Assembly (NCBI RefSeq): GCF_014284155.1 | Contig: NZ_JACOFZ010000010.1 | Location: 50,689 to 114,688 of the forward strand | DNA from: Affinundibacterium nitidum | Lineage (GTDB): Bacteria; Pseudomonadota; Gammaproteobacteria; Burkholderiales; Burkholderiaceae_D | DNA length: 64,000 nt | Reading direction: 5' to 3' | Shown: one piece after another, positions 37,418 through 44,394 of the stretch | Layout of the letters: every line of letters starts with the position of its first letter | Position numbering within the stretch: position 1 is the stretch's first letter | Translations under genes and position numbers: made by a program | The notes under the pieces: model-generated | What the model saw: only the letters and a program-made list of their open reading frames with translations | Told to the model about the DNA's origin: nothing | The model's database searches: none

Positions 37418-37444
37418 AGCCCAACTCCGAGTTGGGCTTTTTTG
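37418..37444 (+). terminator. Terminator after gyrB
   Basis: The stem AGCCCAACTC with GAGTTGGGCT, closed by a short loop, is followed by a run of T residues. It lies 20 bases after the gyrB stop and marks the left edge of the accessory island. Confidence 0.85.
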
Positions 37445-37669: not shown

Positions 37670-38767
37670 ATGACGGAAAATGACAATTCAAATTTAAAGA
37701 AAGATTTTGTTGATCGGCTGCATGGATTAAGTCCATATGTCGGTCGATTGGCAGTTCATCGCGCAAAAATTCTTATTTCTCAATACACAACCGCGGGTAA
37801 TACACTTTTAGATCCGTTTTGTGGCTCTGGCACAATCCCTTTAGAAGCTTGGAAATATGGGTTAAATGTTTTCGCTAGCGATCTCAGTCCATACGCGATA
37901 GCGCTTACGAGAGCAAAATTATTTCCGTATCAATCAGTTGAATTAGCGTTGAAACGAATCGATAAATTCACCGCGCTGGCTGAGCGCGAACGCAAATTAG
38001 TCGATTTGCGCACGGTGCCGATGTGGGTAAGAGATTTTTATCATCCTGAAACATTACGAGATGCAATTGCGTGGGCATGCGTTCTTAGGCAACAAAAATC
38101 TTGGTTTCTCTTCGGTTGTTTTCTTAATTTGCTTCACCACCAACGACCTGGATTCTTATCTTTTCCGGCGAGTCACGCTACACCATATTTAAGGAGTGGA
38201 AAGTTCCCTAAGAATGACTTTCCAGAATTATATGAGTATCGAGACGTTCGGAGCCGTTTGATTAAGAAAGTAAATAGAACACTTAGCAGCCCCATTCCGT
38301 TGAATTTTGATATTCATAGAAACGTCAAATCGGTCAATGCAGCAACACGGAAAAATGGATTTGAAGCAATTGACATGATCTTTACAAGCCCTCCTTACAT
38401 GTCAGGACTTGATTATGCGAGAGACAACAGACTTCGTCTTTGGTTTTGTGGTGTTAGCGATTGGACTCTGCTTGAACAGGATTTGTCGCCATCTCGCAAA
38501 CCATTTTCGGATTTAATGTGTAAATGTTCAAAACGGTGGCAGGAGAATCTTAAACAGCATGGGCATCTGGCAATTGTTTTGGGAGATATACATCGAGACA
38601 AGAAGAGGATAGATGTCGCAAAGATCGTGTTAGAAGCTGTAACTTCAAGTGCACCGAGATTAAGGCTCATCGCTTGCGAAGACCAAGTTTTGCCAGATGA
38701 AAAGCGCTTAATTAAAGGAAATGCGGGAACTCTTAAAGAGACCACTTTGATATTTAAGAAAGTCTAA
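37670..38767 (+). CDS. DNA methyltransferase-like protein (DPFCGSGT / TSPPY)
   Basis: A 365-residue SAM-dependent methyltransferase. Motif I is D48-PFCGSG-T55 followed by FASDLSPYAIALTRA. The catalytic motif IV is T239-S-P-P-Y243, continuing MSGLDYARDNRLRLWF. SPPY is typical of amino-methyltransferases that act on DNA N4-cytosine or N6-adenine. Motif I precedes IV by about 190 residues, leaving a large middle region (100-230, with GFLSFPASHATPYLR) that may be a target-recognition insert. No restriction enzyme is fused. The gene is AT-rich, starts a three-gene operon and is joined to the next gene by TAATAATG. It could modify host DNA for self-recognition; RNA methylation is not excluded. Confidence 0.8.
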   Translation: MTENDNSNLKKDFVDRLHGLSPYVGRLAVHRAKILISQYTTAGNTLLDPFCGSGTIPLEAWKYGLNVFASDLSPYAIALTRAKLFPYQSVELALKRIDKFTALAERERKLVDLRTVPMWVRDFYHPETLRDAIAWACVLRQQKSWFLFGCFLNLLHHQRPGFLSFPASHATPYLRSGKFPKNDFPELYEYRDVRSRLIKKVNRTLSSPIPLNFDIHRNVKSVNAATRKNGFEAIDMIFTSPPYMSGLDYARDNRLRLWFCGVSDWTLLEQDLSPSRKPFSDLMCKCSKRWQENLKQHGHLAIVLGDIHRDKKRIDVAKIVLEAVTSSAPRLRLIACEDQVLPDEKRLIKGNAGTLKETTLIFKKV

Positions 38768-38769
38768 TA

Positions 38770-41274
38770 ATGCTGATTGAAAATCCAACACAATGGGTGG
38801 GAAAAGTTATCGAAGAATATGAGTTGAAATCGATACTTGGGAACGGAAAAATTGGATACGTCTTTCTGGCGGAACATAAAGTGCTCGCGGAAGCCAAGAG
38901 GGCATGCAAAATTATTCGGAGTGATCAACTCAAAACAGGGTGGGAACTTGAAATACAAAAAGTGAAAGCGTTATCAAGTGTTCCGCAAATCGTTGACATT
39001 CAATCTTGGGGTGAAATTCTCGATGAAAAAGGTGATTCCTTCACTTATATTAACTACCAATACATTGATGGCGAAAACTTAACTCAATACCTTAGTCGAG
39101 AGAAAAACCTTTCAATCACTTTTTTGCAGGCGTTAGGTGAGGCACTCATTTATGCAAAACACGCATGTGATGCAATGGATTTGAAGCATGGTGATTTACA
39201 TGAAGGTAACATCTTAATTTCAAAACCAGACCCGAGGCTTCCAGATAATCCAATTCGAATCTATGTCACAGATTTTGGTTGTGGTGGTTCACGCAATCAG
39301 CTCGATCCAAAACCAGACTCGCAGCAAGTTAGTTCGATCATGTGTCGGTTGCTTAAAAGCGTTAGAATCGATCAGCTTGAGGCAACCGAGCGATCAATTA
39401 GAGAGAAACTTATTATTTTTTTTGGTAAGGAATTCACGGATTCTTATCGAATGAATGTTTCAAATAATATCGAATCTACAAACCTAAATTTATGGTCTCT
39501 ATATAAAAAAAGAATAAGTGAAGCCCAAGTAGATGCCGCAAATGCCGGCCGAGGTAGGAGTGAAATTAACGTTGATGACTATTTAAATGCAGAGGCATTA
39601 GGATATCGACAGGATGAATGGCAGAACCTATTTGTGCCAGAAATACTCGGCGCGAGTGCTTTTACAAGTAGGAACGTCACCGTAATCACTGGTGCTCGAG
39701 GATGCGGTAAAACGATGGCGTTCCGAAGGATGACACTCTTCCTCGATGAGTTAATTGGCGAATCCTCGGGTGTACAAGGTGCCGATGGTGTTCTCGGATT
39801 TTATTTGAATTGTCGCGATATAGTTGAGGCTTTCCCATACATTCCTTCGAAATTACATGACGGGCAACGCCGCCAACTGATTCATTACTTTCATTTATGT
39901 TGGCTACATGAAATTTTCCGTGCCTTTGGACAAAGAAATATACGTGAGTCGCTGAGTTACGAATGGGTTTATAACTGGCTGGAAAAGAAATTTGGAAATG
40001 AGTTTGAGCGACCATTGCTTACAGGGGTAGAACCTCTGACATTTCTCTCCAATTTTCTTGGAAACCAAAAAGAAAAATGTCGCTTAAGTCAAAGTAAGAA
40101 ACTAGATCATTGGAACTTAGACCAAATCGATCTTTTAGATGAGCTTTATGCTGTTGCGTCTGAAAATATTCACTGGATTCAAGGCAAGCCATTTTTCTTC
40201 TTTCTGGATGACTATACCATTCCCCTGTTGAATGTTGCGTTACAAGGCACATTAAATCCAATCATCTTTAAGCGGAGAGCAAATCTTTTTTTCAAAATTT
40301 CAACGGAGGCCTCAAATAGTTTCTTGCGAATGAATGGAAAAAAGGCGCTTGAAGTTACACACGATTTTGATTTGATCGATCTCGCGAACGAGACATTGCA
40401 TATTGAATACGAGGAGCGAGCAGATTTATTAAACTCCATCTTTAGACGTCGAATAAAGCGAATTGAAGAATTCCGAGAGTTAAGCTTAGGGCTTGACGAA
40501 ATATTGGGAATAAGTGATTGGTCCTTCAATGAGCAAGCACGAAGGTTGCGTAGTTCAAAAGGGTCTAGTTCCAAAGCAATTTACTATGGATCAAAGGCTT
40601 TCATTAGTATGTGGTCGAGTGATGTTCGTAGTATGGTTCAATTGTTCAATGAGCTTGTTCGATCGCTAAAGGTTAAAGACGTTAGTTTACTGCCAATATC
40701 TCCAATAGATCAACAAAGCAGATATTCTGATTCTGGTGGAGAATTCTTAAACTTAACGGAAACAATTAAGGATACCGGTTTCTGGGATGAAGACGTTAAT
40801 CGCGGAACAACCTCAAAGAATTTTGGTACAAAGTTAAAGGACATCGTTCAGGCATTTATTGCAATTTGTCGGTGGGAATTAATTGAGCAACCGTTGATTC
40901 AAAATCAAGACAGAGAAAATCCAAAACAAGCTTTTCGGATTGAGATAATTGATGCGTTAGAATTAACAGAAAAAACGCAGCTTTATTACAACGGACTATT
41001 GCGATGGCATGTATTCCTCCCCGATTGGCGAGGCAGGAGTGTGCGTGGCGTTATGACCCCTCGTATTTTCTTAAATCAAAGATTGATACCGTTTGCGAGG
41101 ATTTCGTTTAGTAAGAAAGACAGTATTTCCTTGAGCAATAAAGAATTTCAACAGCTATTGAATGAACCAAAGAAATTTGAGCGATACTGGAAAGAAAAAA
41201 GGCGAAATCTAACAAAAGTGAAAGTGCCCCCTGAATCTGGTCAAGCGGACCTTGGATTCGATAAAATGGAATAA
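38770..41274 (+). CDS. Protein kinase fused to a P-loop ATPase (possible ORC/CDC6- or STAND-like)
   Basis: An 834-residue two-domain protein. Residues 15-250 are a eukaryotic-like protein kinase with all key residues: glycine loop G24-N-G-K-I-G29, K47 in ACKII, H140-G-D-L-H-E-G-N147 and D168-F-G170. Residues 270-560 are a P-loop ATPase: Walker A G308-ARGCGK-T315 and Walker B FFLDD481, followed by FFKISTEAS, which could be a sensor 1 strand. The remaining part (560-834) is helical with no recognised motif. There are no membrane segments. It is AT-rich, and it is placed between the methyltransferase and the duplicated Rossmann-like gene, with TAATAATG at both junctions. The architecture suggests a signal-controlled switch in a defence system; the substrate is unknown. 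Confidence 0.75.
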   Translation: MLIENPTQWVGKVIEEYELKSILGNGKIGYVFLAEHKVLAEAKRACKIIRSDQLKTGWELEIQKVKALSSVPQIVDIQSWGEILDEKGDSFTYINYQYIDGENLTQYLSREKNLSITFLQALGEALIYAKHACDAMDLKHGDLHEGNILISKPDPRLPDNPIRIYVTDFGCGGSRNQLDPKPDSQQVSSIMCRLLKSVRIDQLEATERSIREKLIIFFGKEFTDSYRMNVSNNIESTNLNLWSLYKKRISEAQVDAANAGRGRSEINVDDYLNAEALGYRQDEWQNLFVPEILGASAFTSRNVTVITGARGCGKTMAFRRMTLFLDELIGESSGVQGADGVLGFYLNCRDIVEAFPYIPSKLHDGQRRQLIHYFHLCWLHEIFRAFGQRNIRESLSYEWVYNWLEKKFGNEFERPLLTGVEPLTFLSNFLGNQKEKCRLSQSKKLDHWNLDQIDLLDELYAVASENIHWIQGKPFFFFLDDYTIPLLNVALQGTLNPIIFKRRANLFFKISTEASNSFLRMNGKKALEVTHDFDLIDLANETLHIEYEERADLLNSIFRRRIKRIEEFRELSLGLDEILGISDWSFNEQARRLRSSKGSSSKAIYYGSKAFISMWSSDVRSMVQLFNELVRSLKVKDVSLLPISPIDQQSRYSDSGGEFLNLTETIKDTGFWDEDVNRGTTSKNFGTKLKDIVQAFIAICRWELIEQPLIQNQDRENPKQAFRIEIIDALELTEKTQLYYNGLLRWHVFLPDWRGRSVRGVMTPRIFLNQRLIPFARISFSKKDSISLSNKEFQQLLNEPKKFERYWKEKRRNLTKVKVPPESGQADLGFDKME

Positions 41275-41276
41275 TA

Positions 41277-42332
41277 ATGACTCTACGAAACTTGGAACCT
41301 ATCTCGTCAACCCTCTTAAATTGCCAAAACAGTGCCTTCATTTTCGCGATGGGTTTTGAAGATAGAGCCCTAGCTATTCCAAAAGAGATTTGCGCTTCCG
41401 CGGACATCACCCAACTAATTGCGATTCGATATTCACAAGCGAAGGGGAAGAATAGGGAATCCGAAGTAAAGCAAATGTTCGATTCGCATCACAAGGACCT
41501 TTCGGTTTTACCGTATTCATCTAAATCCGCTCATGAATTTGAATATAAGATTAAGGGAATCTGTAGAAAATCTTTGGCGAATTTTTCCGAAATAATTGTC
41601 GACATTTCTGCGATGTCGAAAATGTTAATCTTAGTACTTATCGTTGTACTTTTAAAAGAGAGGAAAAATATTAGAATTGTTTTTTCGGAAGCAGAAACGT
41701 ATGCGCCAACAAATGTAGAGTTCAATAAGGTTTTTCAAAGATCAGGGTCGCTTTTAGCAACTTTTGCAGGGCAACCAACTTTAGGAATTTCAACGATTTT
41801 GCGTTCAACGTGTTTAAGTAGCTCACGAATGCAGGGACAACCTGTTTGCGCCGTTGCCTTCACATCTTTCAACGAAGAATTAATTCGCCATAGCATCGGT
41901 ACACTAAATCCGCATCGCTTAGTTTTGATCAATGGAGTTCCTCCTTCAACAGAATCACACTGGCGAGCGTTGGCAACACAACGAATTCACAAGAAACTAA
42001 TTGAGGAGTTTTCAGAAGACAATCCAATAAATCCCGAGAGTCAATTATTGGTCCGATCGACGTCGACATTAGACTATCAAGACACTTTGAAAACACTCAT
42101 TGAGATTCGCAGCAAATTTAATATTTATGAGCGTCTGATATATTTCGCAACCGGCTCAAAAATGCAAACCGTTGCGTTGTCATTGTTAAAAGCTGCTTTT
42201 GATGATGTCCATATTGAATATCCGACACCTGATAGTTATTTTTTTAATGAATACTCAAAAGGAATAGGAAAACAGTGGCAGTTGCTGATCGATGCAAACA
42301 CCGTGATTGATCTTCAAAAAATGGAAGCTTAG
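41277..42332 (+). CDS. Tandem Rossmann-like protein with duplicated S-K-M motif (unknown function)
   Basis: A 351-residue protein that I do not recognise as a named family. It consists of two similar halves. The first has AMGFEDRAL (25-32), then IIVDISAMSKMLILVLIVVL with S114-K115-M116, then IRIVFSEAETYAP. The second has VAFTSFNEELI, then LIYFATGSKMQTVALSLL with S294-K295-M296, then VHIEYPTPDSYF. In each half a hydrophobic strand leads to SKM, a hydrophobic helix and a strand ending with a tyrosine. This layout recalls CARF/SAVED-type ligand-binding domains, which have TGGTK at a similar place, but the match is by eye only. It is the last gene of the operon and might be the sensor or effector. 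Confidence 0.65.
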   Translation: MTLRNLEPISSTLLNCQNSAFIFAMGFEDRALAIPKEICASADITQLIAIRYSQAKGKNRESEVKQMFDSHHKDLSVLPYSSKSAHEFEYKIKGICRKSLANFSEIIVDISAMSKMLILVLIVVLLKERKNIRIVFSEAETYAPTNVEFNKVFQRSGSLLATFAGQPTLGISTILRSTCLSSSRMQGQPVCAVAFTSFNEELIRHSIGTLNPHRLVLINGVPPSTESHWRALATQRIHKKLIEEFSEDNPINPESQLLVRSTSTLDYQDTLKTLIEIRSKFNIYERLIYFATGSKMQTVALSLLKAAFDDVHIEYPTPDSYFFNEYSKGIGKQWQLLIDANTVIDLQKMEA

Positions 42333-42383
42333 AGACTCTGCTCAATTAGAATAGAACTGGAAAAAATTGGTTGCAATGGATCT

Positions 42384-42407
42384 ACCTCAAATGAGGTGAT
42401 TATTTTG
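42384..42407. terminator. Weak hairpin between convergent island operons
   Basis: ACCTC-AAAT-GAGGT (42384-42397) is followed by GATTATTTT. It lies between the two convergent island operons and may serve as a weak terminator for the rightward one. Confidence 0.35.
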
Positions 42408-42414
42408 GCCTAAT

Positions 42415-44394
42415 TTACTCCAAAACTGTAGATAAAGACCATACACCGCAATTCAGCAAGTACGTAAAGTTCTCGCCCAAGAAATTTGGTAATCTCGTGT
42501 TATCTTCTGCATCACCAAGCGGCACAAAAATCACCATCCCCTGCCGGGCTCGAGTTAACAAAACCCGATAAGCATTTTCAAGATACCGCTGTTGTTCCTC
42601 TTGCTGCCGCCGTTTCCACGTCGTTCCAGTGAACCGCCAATGCTCGAATTGACCATTGACGTAACGATAGTCTGCATCCCAGGCCACCAAACACCAATCG
42701 AGTTCAAGACCTTGGATATCGAATTCAGTCGCAACATCTTCGAGGTAATGGCATGAACGCACATCGTCCTGCTCATTCAAAAACCAATCTGCTGCAGACA
42801 GTCGATTTTTTACAAAGATACCCTCTGGTTTGAGACGTACTGCGCCAGAGGATGCAATTACTCCTTTTGTTTCATTGGCTCGTGCACGCTCTTTGATCCA
42901 CGCTTTTGCGGCTTGTAAATCGCGAGTGACGACGATGGGGAATTTGTCTTTAAAAGTCTGATAAATCTCCGCCGCGGCCTGTGGATTGTTGTGGATGATG
43001 TGATGCACCATGTGCGACAGTTTCTCTGCGCGGAATGAGCGCATCGATGTGGCTAGGTGCAAACTTGGTTCTGCTTTTGCATTGGCGACAGCATCAAATT
43101 TCACATCACGACCTGCGTATTCAATCTGCGTCAGCTTATCCGAGTAAAAAACATCCCAATGCTTAAAGTGTTGAGCGAGTGCGTCTGCCCAACCTTGTAA
43201 GCCTGCTTCACCCGTGTTGATTTCTTGTCCGCCACCAATCAACGCAATGATCACGCACCAGTCTTGATGCCTATCCATGACACTGATCAGGAATTCAGGT
43301 TCTGATTGTGCGAAGTCTTTTTGACCGCGCTTGGTCGTCATGAATTTAGATGTGTTTTCTTGATCCCAAGCGCGTTGTGCCTCGTCAAAGATCACGACAT
43401 GTTCAACAGGCGCGGACTTATCCTTAATGTATTCGTCTCTGAATTTGTGGATATTTTGTATCGACGCAGAGGCGGCTCGCAATGCGCTTGCTTTGTTCTT
43501 GTGCGCGTTCCTTTTGACTGAATCGCGCGCCAGTGCTTCCGTTAAAACTTCGACCAATGGGCCATTACCGGATAAGAAAACCGCTTGTTCTTCTTTTTCG
43601 ATTCCTGCGTCAGTTGCAATATTGAGGCCTACCAAGGTCTTGCCTGCCCCTGGTACTCCGGTCACGAAGCATATCGTTTTTCGCTGATGTAATCGGGCGT
43701 TGTGAATGATGTCTTCCAAGGTCTTTGAAGTTAGATGCAAGTTCTGTGCGCCTGCGTCGTTTCGCGCAATGTCGTTCACATCGTGATTGGCATAGAGCGC
43801 TTGTGCAGCTTCGATGATGGTGGGTGTTGGCTTATAGGACGCATACAGCCATTCGCCTACATTGATCGTCGGCGGATTCTCGATTTGGCGAACACATTGC
43901 TCAATCATGGCTAAAACGTTTTCTTGATTGGCGCGTAGCGGCTCAAAGACCAAGTCTGCGCCGCATGTGATCGGATCATGTTTTGACTTGGCATTTGTTG
44001 CGATCAGCATCGGTACTATGCATTTGTCGTGGCTTCCCTCATGAAAATGATGAAGGTCGAGTGCGTATCCGTGCGCTTGGCGGAGGTCACTAGCGTGGTA
44101 GTCTTTGGCGCCAACCTTAAACTCGAGCACAAATAAAATGTCTTTGTAGATCAAGACTACGTCGGCACGCTTACCCATGCGTGGTATCAGAACTTCAAAT
44201 AGTAGAAAACCTTCTGTGAGACCTGCCAAACATTTTTGAAGTAAATTGATTTGACTCAGCCATGCACCGGTCTGTTCATGATTGATTTCTTGTGAATGAC
44301 GTTGCGTGATTTTGCCGATGATGGCGTCCGGCGACTCGCGCAAGAAATCTGGCACTTCAGCATTGTAGAATGATCTGCTCGACATACTTCTCAC
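42415..44394 (-). CDS. PD-(D/E)XK-like domain fused to DUF2075 helicase-like ATPase
   Basis: A 659-residue protein. The N-terminal part holds a nuclease-like core: E67, D78 in KRADVVLI, and E91-F-K93 in VLEFKVG, the PD-(D/E)XK order. A DUF2075 (SF1-like) ATPase follows: Walker A FVTGVPGAGKT with K252, Walker B IFDEAQRAWD, a late QGLELDWCLVAWD and the motif-VI-like YRVLLTRARQGM near the end. Such proteins are common in defence islands and resemble restriction subunits. The GTG at 44394 overlaps the stop of the controller gene (GTGA); an ATG at 44385 is an alternative start. It probably acts on foreign DNA or RNA, with expression set by the controller. Confidence 0.82.
   Translation of the reverse strand: MRSMSSRSFYNAEVPDFLRESPDAIIGKITQRHSQEINHEQTGAWLSQINLLQKCLAGLTEGFLLFEVLIPRMGKRADVVLIYKDILFVLEFKVGAKDYHASDLRQAHGYALDLHHFHEGSHDKCIVPMLIATNAKSKHDPITCGADLVFEPLRANQENVLAMIEQCVRQIENPPTINVGEWLYASYKPTPTIIEAAQALYANHDVNDIARNDAGAQNLHLTSKTLEDIIHNARLHQRKTICFVTGVPGAGKTLVGLNIATDAGIEKEEQAVFLSGNGPLVEVLTEALARDSVKRNAHKNKASALRAASASIQNIHKFRDEYIKDKSAPVEHVVIFDEAQRAWDQENTSKFMTTKRGQKDFAQSEPEFLISVMDRHQDWCVIIALIGGGQEINTGEAGLQGWADALAQHFKHWDVFYSDKLTQIEYAGRDVKFDAVANAKAEPSLHLATSMRSFRAEKLSHMVHHIIHNNPQAAAEIYQTFKDKFPIVVTRDLQAAKAWIKERARANETKGVIASSGAVRLKPEGIFVKNRLSAADWFLNEQDDVRSCHYLEDVATEFDIQGLELDWCLVAWDADYRYVNGQFEHWRFTGTTWKRRQQEEQQRYLENAYRVLLTRARQGMVIFVPLGDAEDNTRLPNFLGENFTYLLNCGVWSLSTVLE

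Follow-up and report, generated by a model that had tools for sequence, protein, structure and literature searches.

What do a DNA methyltransferase, a protein joining a kinase to an ATPase, and a sensor-like protein do together in one operon? The question is raised by three genes at positions 37670 to 42332 of a stretch of 64,000 nucleotides from Affinundibacterium nitidum (contig NZ_JACOFZ010000010.1), the whole of which is called the window. An earlier reading made from the letters alone, the sequence-only reading, had proposed a phosphorylation-gated, methylation-aware defence system. Its three plus-strand open reading frames (ORFs) were exact, with gaps of 2 nt at both junctions in the ORF listing of the window. 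Comparison with other genomes supports the view that the trio is a conserved unit, and suggests that the kinase occupies an exchangeable slot on a core of ATPase and CARF protein. We give even chances to the operon being a modification-guarded defence cassette.

The three proteins

37670-38767, plus strand: gene 1, DNA methyltransferase, ORF of 365 amino acids (aa)
Gene 1, residues 48-55: sequence motif I, DPFCGSGT
Gene 1, residues 156-162: family signature in the sequence, HHQRPGF
Gene 1, residues 239-243: sequence motif IV, TSPPY
38770-41274, plus strand: gene 2, kinase - ORC/Cdc6-like ATPase fusion, ORF of 834 aa
38782-39537, plus strand: kinase domain of gene 2 (residues 5-256) with K47, H140-G-D-L-H, N147, D168-F-G and a short activation segment
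39607-40560, plus strand: best stretch of the ORC-CDC6-like ATPase domain of gene 2 (residues 280-597; PF24389, 2.1e-22) with Walker A GARGCGKT at 308-315 and D480-D481
40903-41124, plus strand: conserved C-terminal block of gene 2 (residues 712-785), with E725, D752, S757, G760, R765, P774 and D784 in 44 of 44 aligned sequences
41277-42332, plus strand: gene 3, tandem CARF protein without effector domain, ORF of 351 aa

The motifs quoted in the sequence-only reading are all present and are not chance occurrences, as Pfam matches of 5.2e-9, 3.2e-10 and 2.1e-22 and the conservation of key residues in 43 to 45 homologues show. Conservation was read from alignments of the window with 43 (gene 2), 45 (gene 3) and 45 (gene 1) of the 47 full cassettes described below, short or split ORFs and locus L108 being excluded; L107 and L108 resemble near copies.

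Gene 1 matches the Pfam family N6_N4_Mtase (5.2e-9), motif I preceding motif IV by approximately 180 residues. Six residues of the HHQRPGF block are present in all 46 aligned sequences and its Q in 45. The SPPY motif, which points to N4-cytosine methylation, is kept in 46 of 46 sequences, and in a profile search solved cytosine-N4 methyltransferases matched at 1.3e-8, adenine enzymes more weakly. Because of the invariant SPPY and the matches to solved cytosine-N4 enzymes, gene 1 appears to encode an amino DNA methyltransferase with likely N4-cytosine specificity; N6-adenine is possible.

The N-terminal part of gene 2 (Pfam Pkinase, 3.2e-10) has a kinase fold with the K, HxD, N and DFG residues: K47 is present in 43 of 44 sequences, and H140, D142, N147 and D168 in all of them. 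The catalytic lysine of HRDLK is not present, its position being taken by H144 in 44/44 sequences, and the activation segment comprises only 11 to 15 residues from DFG to D183, short of a full Ser/Thr-kinase segment. A cut-down C-lobe was considered and ruled out; structure comparison matched the whole fold and only the activation segment is short. HGDLHxGN is a catalytic loop known from small-molecule kinases, and Pfam APH and ABC1 match the gene 2 kinase weakly. The second domain belongs to the PF24389 ORC-CDC6-like ATPases (80 bits versus a curated cut-off of 27), its Walker A motif (G-x-R-G-C-G-K) and acidic pair (D480-D481 of the LDD at residues 479-481) being intact in all 44 sequences. 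A second PF24389 stretch, profile positions 401-571, spans the C-terminal block; the last 170 residues alone gave no Pfam match. In the fold comparison of gene 2 the match lists were filled by the kinase. No nuclease domain was found in genes 1 to 3 by Pfam, PADLOC or NCBIfam, a diverged one being possible in the C-terminal block of gene 2.

Gene 3, described in the sequence-only reading as a duplicated Rossmann-like protein, indeed consists of two halves, roughly residues 16-175 (D109-I-S-x-M-S-K, with S114-K-M) and 189-338 (T-G-S-K-M at 292-296, with S294-K-M). The description had to be corrected to a tandem CARF protein, a sensor of the CRISPR/CBASS type which that reading had not named. 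Gene 3 matches PADLOC CARF6 (9.9e-16), and its predicted structure gave CARF proteins or their kin in the top 25 VIA rows, the type III CRISPR accessory nuclease Can1 (PDB 6sce) coming first with both halves covered and rank 23 going to a SAVED domain; VC1899 and SiRe_0806, also among these matches, were counted as CARF on our assumption. By VIA and Foldseek matches of its predicted structure, gene 3 thus has the CARF fold, with two CARF domains in tandem. Residues D109, M113, G293 and K295 are kept in 46 of 46 sequences. A Cap12 match (0.0016) was set aside as a chance or common-fold match, and transporter and reductase rows were treated in the same way although some of them surpassed CARF rows by E-value.

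Conservation of the trio

The sequence-only reading had named co-conservation of the three genes as its own check. Searched by gene 2 alone, three of 369 genomes of the host class contained relatives, our own included; the other two keep the trio in matching order at 25-41% identity. Searches with the gene 2 protein gave 29 stretches on genome contigs, none of which was confirmed as a relative, no confirmed relative among 50,697 phage records, and five plasmid records, one covering at least 80% of the query. A three-row gene 2 profile run over the phylum matched 31 of 398 genomes, 29 of them in the kinase part only, and its rows were not used.

Loci were instead collected with a methyltransferase profile, which kept 80 of 89 confirmed relatives; L034 and L035, whose contigs recur as L105 and L133, were excluded from the tally. 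Genes 2 and 3 follow on one strand in the same order in 47 of the 80 loci, and the check thus spoke for the earlier proposal. In nine loci gene 2 ends at most 120 bases from the contig end, in one (L096) the contig ends inside gene 1, and 23 lack a gene 2 orthologue, including L144 with a weak kinase match, and L114. In the latter (L114:9902-11668) a gene 3 fragment of 163 aa comes after gene 1 and gene 2 is missing; it looks like a decayed cassette.

The genes are closely packed in most of the 47 full loci, with gaps of up to 54 nt between genes 1 and 2 in 41 and of up to 25 nt between genes 2 and 3 in 45. Wider gaps (284-2340 nt in six loci and 247-723 nt in two, respectively) are partly due to split ORFs. 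Divergence was matched across 43 cassettes with r values of 0.95 for genes 2 and 3, 0.79 for genes 1 and 3 and 0.74 for genes 1 and 2, and of 0.90 for the kinase versus the ATPase domain within gene 2 (none of 2000 permutations as high in each case), correlations that partly reflect common descent of the hosts. By these values genes 2 and 3 belong together more closely, with the methyltransferase as a looser yet real partner. Within 4 kb, or up to the contig end where that was nearer, no fourth gene recurred, the best cluster occurring at four of the 47 loci.

In the gene 2 tree the window clusters with Verrucomicrobiota, Bacteroidota and Nitrospirota (100/100). Host phyla are interleaved, which alone does not prove transfer; the three archaeal sequences require three label changes, two of them within a small clade that also holds a planctomycete. 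These comparisons support the trio as a conserved unit in bacteria and archaea.

Exchangeable methyltransferase and enzyme slot

Some of the loci with no gene 2 orthologue join the same methyltransferase family to other partners. It stands beside a ParA-like ATPase and a SIR2-like protein in L077:9905-12959 (both by Pfam) and in L104 (by eye, from the first residues), beside a ParA-like protein only in L112 and, after another ORF, a SIR2-like protein only in L125, L134, L136, L145 and L149 (all by eye); L150 was put with this group on place and length alone. Methyltransferase, ParA-like ATPase and SIR2-like protein look like another methylation-guarded defence set. A GmrSD_N/DUF262 protein adjoins the methyltransferase in L078, L079 and L101 (Pfam) and L076 (by eye), where an extra ORF of approximately 215 aa occurs that has no Pfam match in L078 and L101, and a ParB_N protein adjoins it in L116. 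Standing beside such different partners, the methyltransferase is thus an exchangeable part.

The ATPase was followed in 19 PF24389 loci, 18 from searches of the order and phylum plus L161; G770 was left out because its match coordinates are the same as those of G906. A CARF6 protein is fused to the ATPase or directly follows it in 16 of the 19. The slot before the ATPase holds PRTase-CE in seven of these 16 (L037, L038, L041, L175, L179, L180, L182), a calcineurin-like metallophosphoesterase in four (L036, L040, L177, L161), HD-CE in two (L176, L178) and a ParA-like protein in one (L039). A kinase occupies it in L181, as a single chain with the CARF part that PADLOC matches end to end and whose kinase is below the Pfam cut-off; in L042 the slot is lost at the contig end. 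Three loci have no CARF neighbour. L043 and L183 are partial PF24389 matches (50 and 41 bits, respectively); in L044 the gene begins at a contig edge and is followed by another ORF, and so far as can be seen this locus is a real exception. The PRTase-CE loci L179, L180 and L182 carry a further gene of about 640 aa, with a weak HAD-hydrolase match in L182.

Methyltransferases lie near the core in 11 of the 16 loci, of the D12 type in L036 and L040, C5 in L041, L176, L178, L181 and L161, and N6/N4 in L037, L038, L039 and L175; that of L178 is several genes off, and both of L181 are on the opposite strand. None was seen near the core in L177, L179, L180, L182 and L042, with L042 and L177 cut by the contig on one side. 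The step of our argument that comparison of loci supports best is that the kinase stands in a slot open to exchange of enzymes, carried by a conserved core of ATPase and CARF protein.

Known systems and messenger makers

The sequence-only reading knew of no described system with this exact set and would have been refuted by an already named one. This check came out half against it: PADLOC lists a fused form, CARF6--CARF_STK_AAA (PDLC01925), with matches of 3.6e-22 to gene 2 (residues 8-654) and 2.4e-11 to gene 3. It combines kinase, ATPase and CARF in the order of genes 2 and 3, but in one chain of 1187 positions, while these parts are split over two genes here. Locus L181 represents the single-chain form; its nearby C5 methyltransferases, on the other strand, are not of the HHQRPGF amino-methyltransferase kind. 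The PADLOC form reportedly stems from a 2020 survey of the CARF superfamily. The PF24389 cassettes with PRTase-CE, HD-CE or a calcineurin-like enzyme share the ATPase-CARF6 core and its order, often with a methyltransferase near, and differ from the trio in the slot enzyme and the methyltransferase class. PF24389, PF24390 and PF24391 are listed by Pfam as named families. These entries and the PADLOC form show that parts of the cassette pattern have already been recognised by others. The earlier view held to the extent that no paper on the three-gene form or its mechanism was found in the literature searched, which did not include the 2020 CARF survey.

By the markers tested, the cassette falls outside BREX, CBASS and type III CRISPR. 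The likeness to BREX seen in the sequence-only reading holds for methyltransferase and ATPase, not for the BREX markers PglZ and PglW at the locus. With BREX type 2, which we take to consist of PglX, PglW, BrxC and PglZ, the cassette shares a methyltransferase, a kinase and an ATPase of the ORC/Cdc6 clade, but the locus is without PglZ, its kinase is not PglW (NCBIfam score of gene 2 21.3 bits versus a cut-off of 990) and a CARF pair is present instead. The sole PglZ match of the genome is in an 836-aa frame on contig C22 (C22:408873-409403, L184), the window lying on C1; that frame is possibly a BREX system or a relative. Methylation-associated defence (MADS), a multi-gene set, likewise has a methyltransferase and a kinase, and the gene 2 kinase matches mad6 at 5.6e-14. 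Only three genes are present here, however, and the MAD6 score is 42.1 bits against a cut-off of 460; in genes 1 to 3 and the neighbouring PDC-S41 gene, the proteins scanned, the other mad models gave no more than mad2 at 1e-5 with gene 1 and mad8 at 0.022 with PDC-S41. PD-T4-6 and Stk2, both kinase antiphage genes, share the kinase domain, and PD-T4-6 models match gene 2 (best 2.7e-14); in our cassette the kinase is instead fused to an ATPase and paired with a CARF protein and a methyltransferase. Can1, the best solved match, also has two CARF domains per chain, but gene 3 lacks a nuclease domain, and searches of the genome gave no cas10.

The genome, a draft of 80 contigs with 99.69% completeness, gave no match to the Cas10 models TIGR02578 and TIGR02577 nor to the CD-NTase model SMODS (PF18144). 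Forty of the 47 cassette genomes were searched, in which Cas10 was above cut-offs in eight, SMODS in ten and either in 15; many of these genomes are bins and possibly incomplete, and Cas10 and SMODS were the only synthases sought. Since 25 of the 40 genomes have neither, messengers made by these enzymes cannot, by such profile matches, be the general answer for the CARF pair.

Genomic site and neighbouring genes

The cassette lies downstream of gyrB, which is itself downstream of dnaN (neighbours read from ORFs). As noted in the sequence-only reading it is AT-rich, its G+C content being 0.398 versus 0.474 for the window; equally low values occurred in four of 594 sliding windows of equal length. 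In the 14 relatives that were read, out of 20 of the genus with gyrB, the cassette is absent behind gyrB (14/14; 9-13 kb read). Five carry other defence-type genes there. L161, whose gyrB is 97% identical to that of the window, has a sister cassette at the same site (L161:7852-12760) composed of a C5 methyltransferase, a metallophosphoesterase-ORC fusion of 948 aa and a CARF6 protein. L163 harbors PDC-S41 about 1.2 kb further on from gyrB and no cassette, L164 a C5 methyltransferase and a DpdB/REase-like gene, and L173 and L174 type I methyltransferases. In L166 the next gene on the far side of the window's cassette follows only 382 bases after gyrB. L170 gave a weak PADLOC match and one gene each scanned in L165 and L169 gave none; the PADLOC scan left aside L162, L167, L168, L171 and L172. 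Because the 3′ end of gyrB is partly duplicated downstream in L162 (3454-3558) and L171 (3100-3289), the gyrB end suggests itself as an insertion target; a second copy was not found in the window.

Copies of the cassette also occur on a plasmid (L155) and on contigs that their source collection labels as viral, namely the complete trio with a tail-protein gene nearby in L156 and L157, and gene 2 with a CI-like repressor gene in L158. The variable site behind gyrB, the plasmid copy and the viral contigs make the cassette look like a defence system and support the defence reading given earlier. Two more viral contigs (L159:7917-9230, L160:7917-9263) encode kinase-like proteins of approximately 440 aa that match the kinase part of gene 2 only.

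The following features border the cassette:

37419-37437, plus strand: terminator-like hairpin and T run behind gyrB, the upstream boundary, found by inspection and unlisted by the pattern scan
42383-42398, plus strand: terminator-like hairpin behind gene 3, from the pattern scan, such sites being no more frequent than in shuffled sequence
42415-44394, minus strand: PDC-S41 candidate defence gene (Schlafen group 3 helicase), PADLOC 1.8e-281

Transcription from one promoter side, as claimed before, is plausible; a hairpin lies behind gyrB, and the pattern scan gave no promoter-like site before gene 1, with seven sites in total versus a mean of 14.1 in shuffled sequence. Identical eight bases are found at both junctions of the cassette (38765-38772 and 41272-41279), comprising the stop codon and an ATG two bases on, which suggests that translation of the genes is coupled. 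PDC-S41 converges on the 3′ end of the cassette. It was rejected as a fourth cassette gene: it lies on the opposite strand, its G+C content of 0.477 is unlike the 0.398 of the cassette, it was unmatched in 82 sources searched, and it occurs without the cassette in L163.

Proposed mechanism and alternatives

In the mechanism we propose, the methyltransferase would mark the cell's own DNA. The ORC/Cdc6-like ATPase would, to judge from its family, be a DNA-engaging switch and platform that loads on incoming unmarked DNA and assembles, and the tandem CARF protein would bind and gate it, most simply by way of a nucleotide ligand between its halves. Once licensed, the N-terminal kinase would act as the output, phosphorylating targets and stopping growth of the phage or of the cell itself. 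We favor the kinase as output chiefly because sister cassettes built on this ATPase-CARF core have other enzymes in exactly its place. For the same reason it is more likely an output or a signal-making enzyme than the gate assumed in the term phosphorylation-gated. The proposal starts from observed families and folds, intact catalytic residues, conservation of the unit, modularity of core and slot, and presence on mobile elements; from these we infer the defence function, the order of events, the ligand and the substrate.

Several points weigh against this reading. Makers of CARF or SAVED ligands are mostly missing, 25 of 40 genomes being without Cas10 (two models) or SMODS above cut-offs. The HGDLHxGN loop without the HRDLK lysine and the very short activation segment leave a protein substrate not certain. 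Methyltransferase and ATPase-CARF core are not tied to each other, 23 of 80 methyltransferase loci being without gene 2 and five of 16 cores without a methyltransferase seen. Direct restriction is not obvious, the searches of the cassette having given no nuclease domain, and we know of no antiphage test of it.

The main divide is whether the slot enzyme is a weapon or a signal maker. In the latter case the kinase, or elsewhere the PRTase, HD or metallophosphoesterase enzyme, would make, alter or remove a phosphorylated or nucleotide ligand for the CARF pair, and the ATPase would be the effector or DNA step. Judged by family name, the slot enzymes other than ParA all fall within phosphate, nucleotide or phosphodiester chemistry, the catalytic loop and the weak APH and ABC1 matches recall small-molecule kinases, and with Cas10 and SMODS mostly absent any ligand needs another source; we nevertheless hold a signal maker to be unlikely. 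The CARF pair might also be an adaptor or a sensor of RNA ends and no cyclic-nucleotide receptor, as the CARF domain of RtcR binds the proteins RtcA and RtcB (PMC9650030). Such a role would fit the scarcity of ligand makers and the divergence of genes 2 and 3, matched as tightly as that of the domains within gene 2, as in a stable complex. It is rendered improbable by the four invariant loop-before-helix residues in the two halves, which suit a pocket, and by the top solved match being a receptor activated by cyclic oligoadenylate.

Exclusion without killing, in which methyltransferase and ATPase block replication of phage DNA while kinase and CARF protein tune them, is suggested by BREX, where a methyltransferase is paired with BrxC, an ATPase of the ORC/Cdc6 clade, and where PglW of type 2 is a kinase protein (PMC12839542). 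The core component PglZ is found only on another contig, however, the PglW score is far below its cut-off, and replacement of the kinase by other enzymes at the same slot fits an output better than a tuner, so that we consider exclusion of this kind quite unlikely. A host operon with an epigenetic or regulatory role instead of defence, for which the chromosomal position beside dnaN and gyrB and the lacking phage assay may be adduced, is very improbable given the rare and patchy distribution (three of 369 class genomes, own included), the absence behind gyrB in 14 relatives, the plasmid and viral copies and the low G+C content.

The modification-guarded defence cassette may be an instance of a broader design, which we put forward tentatively and regard as possible but doubtful. 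In this form of immunity the ORC/Cdc6-like ATPase and the tandem CARF protein would replace the restriction nuclease, any of several methyltransferases would mark self, and a swappable enzyme of phosphate or nucleotide chemistry, here a kinase, would make the ligand or deliver the blow. As this would occur without Cas10 or CD-NTase, the CARF pair would answer a new messenger. If true, CARF sensing would be joined to methylation-based discrimination of self and non-self, and a replication-initiator-like ATPase would be the hub carrying different output enzymes. The design would also account for the variety of partners met next to a single methyltransferase family, and would provide a test bed for what a CARF pair senses in cells without Cas10.

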